Assembly: GCA_030705885.1 (NCBI GenBank)
Contig: JAUZPN010000010.1
Location: forward strand, 1-34,122
Direction: 5' to 3'
DNA: 34,122 nt
From: Bacillota bacterium
GTDB taxonomy: Bacteria > Bacillota > Clostridia > Clostridiales > Clostridiaceae
Shown: one piece after another, positions 19,628 through 24,768 of the stretch
How the letters are laid out: each line of letters starts with the position of its first letter
Position numbering within the stretch: the stretch's first letter is position 1
Position numbers and translations under genes: made by a program
Notes under the pieces: model-generated
The model's input: only the letters and a program-made list of their open reading frames with translations
Database searches by the model: none
Told to the model about the DNA's origin: nothing

Positions 19628-22537
19628 TTACTTACACAATTTCAAAAAGTCCGAAACTGTTTTATCTGAAACAACACCATAAGAACCAAAAATAGTAAAT
19701 TGGATACCTTTAGCACTAACACTCTTAATATAATCAGCTGCCTGATTGCAATTGCTACCAGCAATTAAAATAATAGGATTATTACTTTTTATTGCTAGTG
19801 AAGTTCCAGATAATGCATCTGGAAAATCTAAGCCTGTTGCAAAATAAGGATTAGAAGTATTTTTGAAAAAATAACCATTTATTATTTTACTAGTTTCAAA
19901 TCTATTACTTCCACTAAGCCTAATAATTTGATCATCATTACATCCTAGAGTTTCCTTAACATCATCTTTTACATCATCTGAAATTACTCCTGTACCTCCA
20001 ACAATAAATACTTTACTTGGCTTTTTACTGGTTAAATAATTTTTAACATCAGCATTTAATTCGTTTGTACTAGTTAGTAGTATTGGCCATCCATTAATTC
20101 CTGCTGCACTTGAAATACTTAATGCATCTGGGAAATTATTATCTACCGCAAGTATAACTGGAGCACCTATATTAGTATTCAGCATATTTGCAATTTGTAC
20201 AGATGTTTGATTTCTATTATCTCCACTAATACGTACAATGTTTGATTTATTAAAACCTTGATTTATAAAATAGTCAATAAAAGAATCTTTTATAACTCCA
20301 TTACCACCCAAAATATAAATATGTCCTTCTTTTTTTAGATTTTTATTAATATAATCTAAAGCAGGCTGACTAGAATCATTTGGACTAGAATCAACCAACA
20401 ATATTGGTGCATTGTACTTTTTAGATAAAGTTGCTCCTGCTAATGAATCTGGAAAATCATTACCTGTTGCTATAATTACATTATCTAGTTGAGTACTTTG
20501 TCCACTAATAAATGAATCTGCAATAATTTTCGAAGTTTCATATCTATTTTTGCCGCCTAACCTATCATAACTTGTAAATGCAGTTTGACTATAGCTTTTT
20601 GTTAAATCGCTAGTAATAATAACTGGACTTACTATAGGACTGCTCCAATATCCACTATTATTCTTTGTTTCTAAAGTCCAATAATATAAACCTTCCTGTA
20701 AATCTGACAAATCTTGCGAAACATAACTTACATCACTATTATCTCCAATTTCATATATTAATCTGCCTGTAGATTGAGATGTACTATTAATAGATCCCTG
20801 ATACAGCCTTATTCTATACGCAACTTGGTATCCATTACTATGTGTATCCTTAAATCTCCAATTAAAGTTAATATTTTCATCCTTAATCTGAACAATATTA
20901 GGACTGCATATTTCTGGCTGTGCAGAATTACTTTCAATAAAATCGCTATCCATTTTACTATATCTTTCTGCAGCATATCCATCATCGTCACCATATCCAT
21001 TATTTAGTTCATCTAATGTTCGATAATATTTTTTTACCTTTTGACCTGAACCATCTTTATTTCCACCTGTTTCCTCAATAGTATTAGCACCAATCCTTCC
21101 TCCATTAGAATCATACATCCATGATAAGAAAAATACTACATGCTCCTGAACATCAAGAAGAATATCCATACTCTTAAGCTGATCATATCTTATTGATATT
21201 AAATATGGTTTCCCGTTTGGATCATTACCAGCAAGTGTCCATGTACCAAGCTTAGATCCTGGTATTTTCAAAACATTTTGAACAAATCCAGAACAATCTA
21301 AACCTGCAGTACTACTTTTATATCCGCCGCTGCAGTACATATTTCCTGCCAAAGCACCTTTACTGATAGCATCTGTAAAATTAGACCACTTAGAAGTATT
21401 AGATGAAGAGTCAAGACCATCAGAACCACCCCAGCAATATGGTATTCCTTGTTCATCTGATTCAGTAACATTTGTAAATTGAGCAGGTAATTCTGTAACA
21501 TTTTCTATAACATTTCCATTTTTACTTTTTGTATAATGCCATTTTAACTCTGCCATCTTATATGCTCTATCTTGTGCTTCCTGCCTTGAAATTGCATCAG
21601 CCTTAGTAACAAAGAAATTATTAATTGTATCTTCTGCCTTTGATAGAAGGTTTTTGCTCTCTTTTTCTAAATTATATATTTTAATTCCATCAATATCAGT
21701 ATACATATAAAATATATTACCATCTTTATCTATAGAAATATTATTATATGTTGATGTATAAGAAGCTTCATTTGGAATTATATATTTACCTATGATATCA
21801 CCATTAATATTAATTTTATATATAGTTCTCTGATAAAAATCAATTTTCTTTCCTATAGAAATATCTTTCGAGAGTACATATATATTACCATTTTTATCAG
21901 AAGTTAAGATATCAGTCCCGCCATTCTCATGTGAAAAAGATATTTCTATATTTTTATTATTTTTTTCACTAACTAAATTTACAAATTTAGTTTTATTCTT
22001 TGAAGAAGGTTCTAATTTATAACCAAATGTAAATTCAGTTAATGAGCCATCAGAAACTTTTATGTTGCTTAAATAAATATTTCCATTTTTGTCTTTACTT
22101 AATTTTGGATTTACCTCATTTCCAATATTTAATGTTTTTTTACTTTGAATTTCACCATTTAAATTAAGCTCATATACTGTTTGTTCATTATCAAGAATAT
22201 ATAATTTATTATTACTTATTATCAAATCAAGTGGATTTTCTATTTTTAAGTTTATAGATTTTTCAAAAGTTTTATTATTAAAGATTAATACTTTTTTATT
22301 AATTGAATCTAAAATATAAAATTTCCCATTTTCGCTTGTAAAACTTTCTGCACTTTTTCTCTCTTCATCAAGTTTATTGATAATAGATAAGTTACCATTT
22401 TTACTATCATTATACTTTACTTTTAAAACTGGATATATTGTTGTTTCTTTAGCATATACATTAGAAAAATTGAAAAACATGTTTGAAAACAATAATACAA
22501 TTGTAAGTATAAATGAAATAATTTTTTTCTTTTTCAT
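19628..22537 (-). CDS. Secreted NlpC/P60-like wall protein with propeller-like N-terminus and three CWB2 repeats
   Basis: This 969-residue exported protein has a signal peptide (MKKKKIISFILTIVLLF..., cleavage near VYA-KE, about 29-30). Residues about 60-300 contain repeated 'DKNGNIYxL'-type strands (near 149, 214 and 270) and 'KFYILDSINKKVLIF/KLYILDNEQTVYEL' pairs, suggesting an NHL-like beta-propeller. An NlpC/P60-like cysteine peptidase or amidase region follows: YCWGG (367-371), catalytic Cys415 in GLDCSGFV, probable catalytic His466 in QEHVVFF and a polar residue near NTIEETGG (488). About 40 residues are inserted between YCWGG and the Cys. A fibronectin-III-like region (about 540-642) and three CWB2 repeats (about 658-969, each with a R-x-x-G-x-x-R-x-x-T/Q-S start and xxxFPDxL, ILGGxGVI) complete it. 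CWB2 repeats bind anionic wall polymer non-covalently. The ATG at 22537 follows AGGAG. Likely roles are peptidoglycan stem-peptide cleavage or wall remodelling. Confidence 0.85.
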   Translation of the reverse strand: MKKKKIISFILTIVLLFSNMFFNFSNVYAKETTIYPVLKVKYNDSKNGNLSIINKLDEERKSAESFTSENGKFYILDSINKKVLIFNNKTFEKSINLKIENPLDLIISNNKLYILDNEQTVYELNLNGEIQSKKTLNIGNEVNPKLSKDKNGNIYLSNIKVSDGSLTEFTFGYKLEPSSKNKTKFVNLVSEKNNKNIEISFSHENGGTDILTSDKNGNIYVLSKDISIGKKIDFYQRTIYKININGDIIGKYIIPNEASYTSTYNNISIDKDGNIFYMYTDIDGIKIYNLEKESKNLLSKAEDTINNFFVTKADAISRQEAQDRAYKMAELKWHYTKSKNGNVIENVTELPAQFTNVTESDEQGIPYCWGGSDGLDSSSNTSKWSNFTDAISKGALAGNMYCSGGYKSSTAGLDCSGFVQNVLKIPGSKLGTWTLAGNDPNGKPYLISIRYDQLKSMDILLDVQEHVVFFLSWMYDSNGGRIGANTIEETGGNKDGSGQKVKKYYRTLDELNNGYGDDDGYAAERYSKMDSDFIESNSAQPEICSPNIVQIKDENINFNWRFKDTHSNGYQVAYRIRLYQGSINSTSQSTGRLIYEIGDNSDVSYVSQDLSDLQEGLYYWTLETKNNSGYWSSPIVSPVIITSDLTKSYSQTAFTSYDRLGGKNRYETSKIIADSFISGQSTQLDNVIIATGNDFPDSLAGATLSKKYNAPILLVDSSPNDSSQPALDYINKNLKKEGHIYILGGNGVIKDSFIDYFINQGFNKSNIVRISGDNRNQTSVQIANMLNTNIGAPVILAVDNNFPDALSISSAAGINGWPILLTSTNELNADVKNYLTSKKPSKVFIVGGTGVISDDVKDDVKETLGCNDDQIIRLSGSNRFETSKIINGYFFKNTSNPYFATGLDFPDALSGTSLAIKSNNPIILIAGSNCNQAADYIKSVSAKGIQFTIFGSYGVVSDKTVSDFLKLCK

Positions 22538-22578
22538 TATTTACTACATCTCCTAATTATAATAACATCATTTGTATA

Positions 22579-24768
22579 TTATCTAGTAATTTTAATTAAA
22601 TTATTAATAACATTATCACTAACTGCACCCTGTAAACCAAATACAGATATTTGTACATTCTTAGAATTTATTCCAAGGTATTTAATATAATTTTCTGCTT
22701 CTTGTGAAGAATTATCGTCTGCTAATATTATTGGTGAATTTTTATCTGCCGCATAAACACTTCCTGTCAATGCATCTGGAAAATCCATCCCTGTAGCGAC
22801 CATAACTTCATCAGGATTAGTAAACAACTCACTATTTATTATTCTGCTTGTCTCATATCTGTCTTTACCACCAAATCTTAAAACGCTATCATCACCATAA
22901 CCTAATGTACTTTTTATTTCGTTTTTAACTTGATCTGATATAACTCCTGTTCCGCCTGCAATATATACTTTACTTGGTTTATTAGCAATAAGATATTTTT
23001 TAACCTCATCGCCTAAACTGTCTTTTCCTGATAGTAGAAGCGGATATCCTTTTAAAGCTGCTACTGGTGAAATACTGAGAGCATCTGGGAAATTATTTTG
23101 TGTTGCAATTACTACAGGAAGTGTACTTGCATCAGAATTAATCTTATCAGCAATTTTCACTGCTGTATCCTGTCTGTTAGTTCCTCCAAGCCTTGTTATA
23201 TTATTAAAGCCTAATTCTTTAAATTTTGTTTGAAAACTTTCAGAAACTACTCCCTGTCCTCCTAAAATATAGATTGTCCCATCTTTATTTAAATGATTTT
23301 TTATATAAGTTATTGCATCATTACTTTCTTCTGGTGAACCAGCTGTAAGAAGAATAGGTGCATTTAATTTTTTTGCTAAAACAGAACCTGCTAGTGCATC
23401 TGGATAATCAAATCCTGTAGCAACAACTACATTATTTATATAATCATTATTTAAACTTTCCGCAATTAATCTAGATGTAGAAAATCTATCTTTACCTCCA
23501 ATTCTAATTTTAAATGAAGCTATATTAGTAGTAATATTTGCATTTTCTTCTATTGAATTTGGATAATAGAAATTCAATATTGTTTTATAGTTTTGAGATG
23601 AATTTGCTCTAGCATTTGCACCTTCTTGACTCATACCAAGACCATGTCCATTCCCTTTTCCATTAAATGTATATAGTCCATTGGTATAACTTATATTATA
23701 TAAGGAACTATTAAAACCAAATAAGGTTATAGCTTCACTCTGTGGTACATCTTTTCCTATTGTAAATGTTTTTGAACTACCTTGATTATCAATATAGTTA
23801 ATAGGTAAATATTTTATTCTTCCACTTTCATATTTTTGAATATTTCCAATATCAATACTACTAAAGCTGCTTATATTTAGTTCTGGATGCTTTTTCTTTA
23901 GTAATGCATCTATATCACTATTTGATTTTGTGCTTGTCCATTTATTATTATTGTCAAAAGGATCTTGTACACTAACCAAATATGGAACTGGAGTTGAATT
24001 CCAAACATTCTGAACAGCTTCTGAATATCCTCCATTACTACATGAATAAAAAGCATCAATAGGATTTGAATTATATGTTAACACAATTCCCTTAGTATTT
24101 AAAACCGCTAATGAACACTTGGGTGATAAATCATTTAAATTTGAATCTAAATTTATACCATCATATACTTGGTCATATGTATTATCTTGTAAATCATATC
24201 CTTTAGACAAATTTTTACCTTTATTTTTTACAGCATAAGTTCTTGCTGCAACAGCTTGAGCTTTTAGTGCCTCAATATTATAAGATTCTGGAGACTCATA
24301 TGGAACTACTCCTCTAACATAATCCTCCATCTGAAGTGAATTAATTGGTACTAAATAACCATCAGTATTTTTAAAAATCATATTTCCTGGAAAATAACAA
24401 GTTTTTAAAACTCCATACTTCATCTTAGAAAACTTTATATATGAATTATAGTTAATAGGTAAAATTTTTATATCATCTGTTGTTATAAATAAAAGATTTC
24501 CATTCTCATAAAACTCAAAGTTATTGCTGCTTAGCTGTATTCTATAATTAGAACCTGATTTTAATGTAATTTCATGATTAGGAATAAAATAACTATCATT
24601 AACTGTAAAGTCTATTGTATTAATTTTACCCATTGATGTAAAACCAATAGAAATAGGTTTTACATAAATGTCGCTAGAAACAGATGCTTGTACTTTTAAA
24701 GGATTTACAAAAATCAATGATACTATTATAATAATTGAAATAAGTTTACTTTTACTTCTATATTTCAT
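22579..24768 (-). CDS. Secreted SpoIID/LytB-domain protein with three CWB2 repeats
   Basis: This 729-residue exported protein has a signal peptide ending near VQA (about 28). Residues about 30-140 form a beta-rich lead region. A SpoIID/LytB domain spans about 140-405: LQMEDYVRGVVPYESP, where Glu158 matches the catalytic Glu of SpoIID, then EALKAQAVAARTYAV, FYSCSNGGYSE and GKGNGHGLGMSQEGA. SpoIID cuts denuded glycan strands as a lytic transglycosylase, and LytB-type relatives stimulate amidases. Three CWB2 repeats (about 422-729) start IRIGGKDRFSTS and recur with FPDAL and YILGGQGVVS/YIAGGTGVIS, so the enzyme is attached to the wall rather than engulfment-specific. The ATG at 24768 follows a run of G and AGGAGG. 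It lies 42 nt upstream of the NlpC-like gene and shares the same CWB2 layout, so the two probably act together on the cell wall. Confidence 0.88.
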   Translation of the reverse strand: MKYRSKSKLISIIIIVSLIFVNPLKVQASVSSDIYVKPISIGFTSMGKINTIDFTVNDSYFIPNHEITLKSGSNYRIQLSSNNFEFYENGNLLFITTDDIKILPINYNSYIKFSKMKYGVLKTCYFPGNMIFKNTDGYLVPINSLQMEDYVRGVVPYESPESYNIEALKAQAVAARTYAVKNKGKNLSKGYDLQDNTYDQVYDGINLDSNLNDLSPKCSLAVLNTKGIVLTYNSNPIDAFYSCSNGGYSEAVQNVWNSTPVPYLVSVQDPFDNNNKWTSTKSNSDIDALLKKKHPELNISSFSSIDIGNIQKYESGRIKYLPINYIDNQGSSKTFTIGKDVPQSEAITLFGFNSSLYNISYTNGLYTFNGKGNGHGLGMSQEGANARANSSQNYKTILNFYYPNSIEENANITTNIASFKIRIGGKDRFSTSRLIAESLNNDYINNVVVATGFDYPDALAGSVLAKKLNAPILLTAGSPEESNDAITYIKNHLNKDGTIYILGGQGVVSESFQTKFKELGFNNITRLGGTNRQDTAVKIADKINSDASTLPVVIATQNNFPDALSISPVAALKGYPLLLSGKDSLGDEVKKYLIANKPSKVYIAGGTGVISDQVKNEIKSTLGYGDDSVLRFGGKDRYETSRIINSELFTNPDEVMVATGMDFPDALTGSVYAADKNSPIILADDNSSQEAENYIKYLGINSKNVQISVFGLQGAVSDNVINNLIKITR

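Follow-up and report, generated by a model that had tools for sequence, protein, structure and literature searches.

What is a beta-propeller doing at the front of a putative cell-wall peptidase? The question is raised by one gene in a 34,122-nucleotide stretch of DNA from a bacterium of the Clostridiaceae (assembly GCA_030705885.1, contig JAUZPN010000010.1), which we refer to as the window. The encoded protein (the window protein) has an N-terminal propeller, a core that resembles NlpC/P60 enzymes, a candidate Ig/FN3-like domain, and three CWB2 repeats. The propeller is seen both with profiles and in a structural model, and the site residues of the core are conserved together with a long insertion. 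We consider that this is probably a peptidoglycan peptidase or amidase anchored in the wall, with a propeller that may recognise a wall ligand or regulate the enzyme. Wall hydrolases need aiming and restraint, and propeller fusions, inactivated-looking paralogs, and propeller-less relatives provide ready comparisons for asking whether a propeller aims or switches such an enzyme. Proteins now called hypothetical could also gain annotation.

The original prediction read residues 367–371 as YCWGG and residue 415 as the catalytic Cys of an NlpC/P60-like core with a long insertion. Both positions are correct, and the insertion was retained when 40 cores were aligned (this set leaves out L020, L024, L053, L054, L081, L082, L084, L085, and L135, which are copies, near-copies, or fragments, as well as L077, a close relative of L076, and L088). 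Pro366, Tyr367, Gly370, Gly398, Asn399, Gly412, Asp414, Asp458, and Glu488 are invariant in this alignment. The Cys of the DCSG motif and the His that follows it, as in NlpC/P60 enzymes, are each present in 39 of the 40 cores, with one protein (L059) being the sole exception at both Cys415 and His466. The spacing from Tyr to Cys is 39–53 residues (48 in the window protein), from Cys to His 42–51, and from His to Glu 17–22. Because the long Tyr–Cys gap is common to all 40 cores, the insertion is a conserved trait of the family, and the idea that it is unique to the window protein is ruled out. The residue before Asp458 is Met in 29 cores and Gly in 11. From the alignment we predict a catalytic triad of Cys415, His466, and Glu488, not the Cys-His-His of Pfam NLPC_P60, with the role of Glu488 taken from its position.

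Sequence profiles support a papain-like fold for the core. Among the 27 members of one profile (A1), 25 match PF00877 at E ≤ 0.1 (best 3.6e-5), none matches CHAP (PF05257) at E 0.1, and none matches DUF2272 (PF10030), the class of Tse1 and of a Ruminococcus flavefaciens module, at E ≤ 0.1. We use long form for a protein that has propeller and core in one chain. A profile of 11 long forms (A3, window protein included) matched RipA at E 2.9e-5 with PYxWGG, DCSG, and the His in register, and core-containing profiles found RipA, Spr, and MepS only weakly (2.9e-5 and down with A3, 0.001 with profile A1). Excerpts of PMC10318531 give as marks of the NlpC/P60-CHAP cluster the Asp of a 'GD' motif (strand 1) and an Arg (strand 5). 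By residue identity in the sequence alignment, both marks of this papain-like cluster II are present, with Asp458 in all 40 cores and Arg525 in 38.

As a comparison, RipA (2xiv, 3ne0) and Spr/MepS (PF00877, MEROPS C40) share the DCSG Cys and the His in register with window-type cores, and RipA also shares PYxWGG. The Tyr-to-Cys gap of RipA, counted from the alignment, is an intermediate 25, whereas window-type cores have 39–53. The third catalytic residue of PF00877 is His (excerpts of PMC10318531), whereas it is Glu in all 40 cores here. CHAP domains share the order Cys-His-Glu, and one reference cited in PMC3573020 has a Cys-His-Glu-Asn relay in its title, but the PYxWGG and DCSG of window-type cores are NlpC-like. 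The NlpC/P60_2 module of RflaF_05439 from R. flavefaciens has a long Tyr–Cys spacing like that of the window protein (Tyr71/Cys109; PMC3573020, in part), so the long gap has a precedent, but its third residue is Gln where window-type cores have Glu. Its structure, given as 4EZY in PMC3573020 and as 4EYZ in PMC10318531 (both in part), was not matched by profile A3 at E up to 10 or by profile A1 at E 1.

Some relatives of the core appear to be inactivated. When the window protein was aligned with six near relatives, four of the seven lacked the Cys and two of those four also lacked the His. L059 has Ser at both places, L197 has Ala at Cys and Ser at His, and L198 and L199 have Ala at Cys and retain the His. 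All four have lost the DCSG motif and have Tyr replacing Trp369. These losses of Cys, His, and DCSG are as expected if these residues form an active site. The Tyr replacement by itself is ruled out as a mark of inactivation because L083 (PYCYGG) and L108 (PYSYGG) keep Cys, His, and Glu. Two genomes hold both types of copy, G047 (L027 intact-looking, L059 inactivated-looking) and G871 (L196 intact-looking, L197 inactivated-looking), with the two copies at different places in the genome. Inactivated-looking core-CWB2 paralogs are thus recurrent, also being seen in G874 (L198) and G172 (L199); their CWB2 repeats, and those of intact-looking copies, were confirmed by Pfam in L027, L059, and part of L196 and read by eye in L197–L199.

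The front of the window protein, predicted to be propeller-like from its recurring strands, is a propeller. The strand pattern [GN][NK][IFLV][YF][YIVLM], chosen post hoc with the sequence already inspected, occurs six times in residues 31–312 (positions 71, 110, 152, 217, 273, and 306) and is absent from residues 313–969; none of 20000 shuffles of residues 31–312 reached six strands (mean 0.12). The Pfam SBBP 'beta-propeller repeat' was narrowly over its cut-off in the window protein (21.3 bits, cut-off 20.5). The Pfam NHL repeat had no match there at E 0.1; among 11 long forms, two matched it at E ≤ 0.01. Profile A4, built from 12 relatives and independent of any structural model, found Pizza7H in the PDB at 1e-9, a sum over repeats that are each weak alone, and PknD at 7e-4. 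Leave-one-out profiles recovered the propeller in 15 of 15 long forms with 24–106 bits (89.9 for the window protein; the weakest were L134 of Rhizobium at 24.2 and L144 at 30.1), compared with 4.8 bits for the best of 75 shuffled propellers and 3.6 bits for the best of 40 cores.

An AlphaFold2 (AF2) model of residues 31–540, of low confidence overall, also resembles a propeller in its N-terminal part. VIA-align placed residues about 47–304 of this model on NHL propellers, including Brat (4zlr_A; Z 13.1, root-mean-square deviation (rmsd) 4.4 over 220 residues), TRIM2 (Z 11.7), PknD (1rwi, Z 11.2), and Pizza6 (Z 11.2). Other propeller classes were close behind at Z 10–12, such as glutaminyl cyclase (12.4) and olfactomedin (11.1). 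Foldseek also found 4zlr_A (E 5e-7), but with a template modelling (TM) score of 0.48 and rmsd of 9.2. The predicted local distance difference test score (pLDDT) had block means of 70–88 over about residues 61–130 and of at least 70 in one later block. The model makes six blades likely, a count that is provisional because other classes score Z 10–12 and pLDDT reaches 70 in only a few blocks. The PknD sensor, Brat/TRIM, and designed Pizza propellers share fold and repeat motif with the window propeller but, judged by entry titles, the matched NHL entries have no papain-like enzyme.

At the other end of the protein, the three CWB2 repeats foreseen from the sequence were recovered by Pfam as a tandem triple repeat (192 bits in three stretches, cut-off 24.9). 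Cwp6 (5j72), a clostridial CWB2 protein with the name N-acetylmuramoyl-L-alanine amidase, matched the window protein at E 1.3e-14 over the CWB2 part only. A review table lists the combination of NlpC/P60 and CWB2 (PMC6403190, in part). The FN3-like segment proposed between core and repeats was found only as a sub-threshold match to Ig_Rha78A_N (24 bits, cut-off 27.4). The component parts are already known and the propeller fusion appears to be the new element.

The core alone is common, being found with a single-sequence query in 27 of 147 genomes including that of the window, and when the propeller of the window protein was used alone to query 194 genomes, it matched only itself and G109. In the family of the window, the long-form profile matched 35 of 206 genomes at E 1e-10, and at this threshold both domains are spanned only in G000 and G871. 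At 545 amino acids the G871 protein (L195) is too short to hold CWB2 as well, so all three parts together (propeller, core, and CWB2) were seen once, in the window protein. Propeller and core occur in one open reading frame (ORF) in the window protein, L057, L092, L108–L112, L138, L140, L141, L144, L195, Rhizobium L134–L136, and L088, which spreads the pairing over many Bacillota, Rhizobium plasmids, and one contig of a metagenome-assembled genome (L088). L138, L140, L141, L144, and L195 are outside the profiles that found them, with L138 being nearly identical to the member L092. On plasmids, 85 records match propeller and core (84 Rhizobium, 1 Neorhizobium) and 21 of these cover at least 80% of the query. 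The 20 Rhizobium rows listed have 22–25% identity; 19 are annotated as 'hypothetical protein' and the remaining record is unannotated. Because the same pairing occurs in such distant bacteria, it looks like a real, uncharacterised kind of protein.

These data support the suggestion that propeller-core proteins are little studied. In Pfam and NCBIfam the 11 long forms had no more than weak, scattered matches, and none of the open-access titles listed for NlpC paired with a propeller, NHL repeats, or CWB2 was on the fusion. Neither a phage reading nor one of known defence was kept, because scans of a viral collection found no relative on viral contigs, a phage collection had no match with the long form L109 as query (the window protein was not used as query there), and none of 11 long forms had a PADLOC match at E 0.01.

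How might such a protein act? We propose that it would be a secreted cysteine peptidase or amidase from the NlpC/P60-CHAP branch within the papain fold, with its CWB2 repeats keeping it on the wall. Cys415 would be the nucleophile and His466 the base, with Glu488 orienting His466, and Tyr367 and the Asp458/Arg525 pair may support the active site. The conserved 42-residue insertion could shape the substrate cleft. Peptidoglycan stem peptides or cross-links would be the most likely target of the cut, and the propeller may dock on a wall ligand, either polymer or peptide, and so place or gate the enzyme. We infer catalysis, the bond cut, the ligand, and the gating. The results in favour of the proposal are the three CWB2 repeats and signal-like start, the Tyr, Cys, His, Glu, Asp, and Arg kept in 38–40 of 40 cores, the RipA match, the inactivated-looking relatives, the propeller matches, and surroundings of polysaccharide synthesis with a second CWB2 protein. 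A further result is that in G412, G333, and G483, close relatives from one family, a propeller-only gene (360–361 amino acids) lies directly next to a gene that carries the YYWGG and DCSG motifs. In G412 the propeller-only gene scores 52 bits and its neighbour has a Golvesin_C domain.

Several results weigh against this proposal. NLPC_P60 scored 14.4 bits with the whole window protein and 17.6 bits with the core alone, under the cut-off of 23, so plain NlpC/P60 membership was rejected and only the resemblance is kept. The AF2 model of residues 31–540, made from only three sequences (the window protein and two L088 rows), had a mean pLDDT of 45 and a predicted TM score (pTM) of 0.43, with the core part below pLDDT 50; for residues 312–540 with two L088 rows, pLDDT was 32 and pTM 0.19. 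In addition, 47 of 49 family match rows start at or after position 235 of 530 in the profile, on the core side. These rows are without most or all of the propeller, which is therefore not a general requirement. Two ordinary NHL proteins are picked up by the long-form propeller profile too (L102 at 71.1 bits, L094 at 31.8 bits). The idea of a propeller specific to the propeller-core family is thus unsupported, and NHL propellers may have been recruited late several times.

A less likely alternative, drawn by analogy, is that the propeller is a built-in inhibitor that would lie over the active site until ligand or proteolysis frees it. In the Tse1/Tsi1 pair (4FGI), a partial beta-propeller protein blocks the active site of an NlpC/P60-like amidase (excerpts of PMC3391265). 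This is the closest precedent for control, and the PknD propeller is the closest for sensing (PMC3601408, in part). The occurrence of propeller and peptidase fused or adjacent in several lineages is consistent with inhibition. By contrast, Tse1 and Tsi1 are separate effector and immunity proteins of Gram-negative bacteria with a Cys-His dyad (PMC3391265, in part), Tsi1 resembles DPP IV propellers where the window propeller resembles NHL propellers, and propeller-less relatives with an intact triad are common.

A wider version of this idea, which we regard as somewhat more doubtful still, is that an NHL propeller and a long-loop Cys-His-Glu core form an old unnamed family from Bacillota to Rhizobium. 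The propeller would control the peptidase in cis like Tsi1 on Tse1, an adjacent membrane-bound protein would complete the control in two Bacillota families, and the window protein would be a wall-anchored branch. The propeller matches to ordinary NHL proteins make this reading slightly less likely. In the Bacillota genome families f76 and f130, proteins of one family of roughly 400 amino acids are encoded directly downstream of propeller-core or propeller genes in 7 of 7 loci examined. These companions (L167–L172 and L145 loci) have 36–93% pairwise identity and, by inspection, seem to begin as lipoproteins or to carry a membrane anchor. Among three that were scanned, the G261 copy passed the cut-off for PD40 propeller repeats and fell short of it for DPPIV_N, and the other two had no domain match. 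In G342 (L145) propeller and companion are retained with no core ORF in between. A tblastn search (1e-3) of L173–L180, L134–L136, L195, L088, and the window gave no companion. We also observed that the propeller and core frames are separate or interrupted, or the core is absent, in L169 (G393), L172 (G466), and L145 (G342), which are possibly decayed or split copies.

It is unlikely that the core acts on a target other than peptidoglycan, such as a surface protein or a lipid-linked amide, or that it works as a transglutaminase. In favour, transglutaminases and lipid amidases belong to the same papain-like cluster II as NlpC/P60 (excerpts of PMC10318531), Glu replaces the third His, and the Rhizobium forms adjoin caspase-family genes. 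However, PYxWGG, DCSG, the Asp, and the Arg suit wall enzymes, the best solved match is RipA, and relatives have CWB2 or, as read by eye, SH3b-like repeats after the core.

We give an equally low chance to the propeller being a neutral spacer or relic in a protein that works like its propeller-less core-CWB2 relatives. Core trees group the window protein with such relatives at 100/99, and the nearest cores (L196, 60% identical, L027, and L059) are without a propeller. The majority of the remaining propeller-bearing cores cluster in a separate group, and L057 and L108 are on long branches. The minimum number of changes of propeller state is three in a tree of 40 rows and two in a tree of 41 rows, which omits L197–L199 and the long branches L144 and L108. 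These trees are compatible with either several losses of an ancestral propeller or a new gain in the lineage of the window protein; the matches of ordinary NHL proteins to the propeller profile would fit such a gain. Against a relic, the six NHL-like strands are intact and propeller with core recurs from Bacillota to Rhizobium. Finally, although many paralogs in the nearest subfamily look inactivated (four of seven aligned), the window protein retains Tyr, Cys, His, Glu, Asp, and Arg and is very improbable as a dead enzyme kept for wall binding.

Table 1. Positions in the window of the gene, its domains, its site residues, and a neighbouring gene.
Feature	Position	Strand	Basis
Whole gene, propeller-peptidase-Ig-CWB2 protein	19628..22537	minus	ORF, 969 amino acids, ATG start
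AGGAG ribosome-binding site, 12 nucleotides 5' of ATG	22550..22554	minus	Read by eye
Signal-like sequence, residues about 1–29 (...NVYA/KETT)	22451..22537	minus	By inspection
NHL-type propeller, residues about 47–304	21626..22399	minus	AF2 model, fold searches, profile vs PDB, leave-one-out profile
Papain-like (NlpC/P60-like) core, residues about 314–530	20948..21598	minus	Sequence searches, profile vs PDB, 40-core alignment
YCWGG motif, residues 367–371	21425..21439	minus	Tyr367 invariant, 40/40
Insertion between WGG and Cys motif, residues 372–413	21299..21424	minus	40-core alignment
Gly398-Asn399 within insertion	21341..21346	minus	Invariant, 40/40
Predicted catalytic Cys415	21293..21295	minus	39/40
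Asp458, at place of 'GD' motif Asp	21164..21166	minus	40/40; motif from excerpts of PMC10318531
Predicted catalytic His466	21140..21142	minus	39/40
Predicted third residue Glu488	21074..21076	minus	40/40
Arg525, candidate partner of Asp458	20963..20965	minus	38/40, else Lys; excerpts of PMC10318531
Ig/FN3-like domain, residues about 547–632	20642..20899	minus	Pfam Ig_Rha78A_N, sub-threshold
Three CWB2 repeats, residues about 659–969	19631..20563	minus	Pfam CWB2
SpoIID/LytB-domain protein with three CWB2 repeats	22579..24768	minus, same strand as window gene	Pfam

The SpoIID/LytB-CWB2 gene is 41 nucleotides upstream of the window gene, with galU, a TPR protein gene, and a phosphoglucomutase-type gene beyond it. 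The other flank holds a cluster for polysaccharide synthesis (glycosyltransferases, UDP-sugar dehydrogenase, Wzy, and flippase). The source genome has 22 more CWB2-matching stretches (25 matches minus the window gene itself and two core matches), including the upstream neighbour. We infer that the window protein is secreted. The N-terminal signal peptide is apparently absent, by inspection, from L112 and L195, so some members may act intracellularly. The contig of L088 (JAOZRH010000007.1) is assigned to Neomarinimicrobiota; an assembly gap breaks its core, and the two core copies flanking the gap of Ns may be a repeat or an artefact of assembly. The island that contains the Rhizobium propeller-core gene (L134–L136) is conserved and also has caspase-family, DUF4384, and isoprenylcysteine methyltransferase genes.

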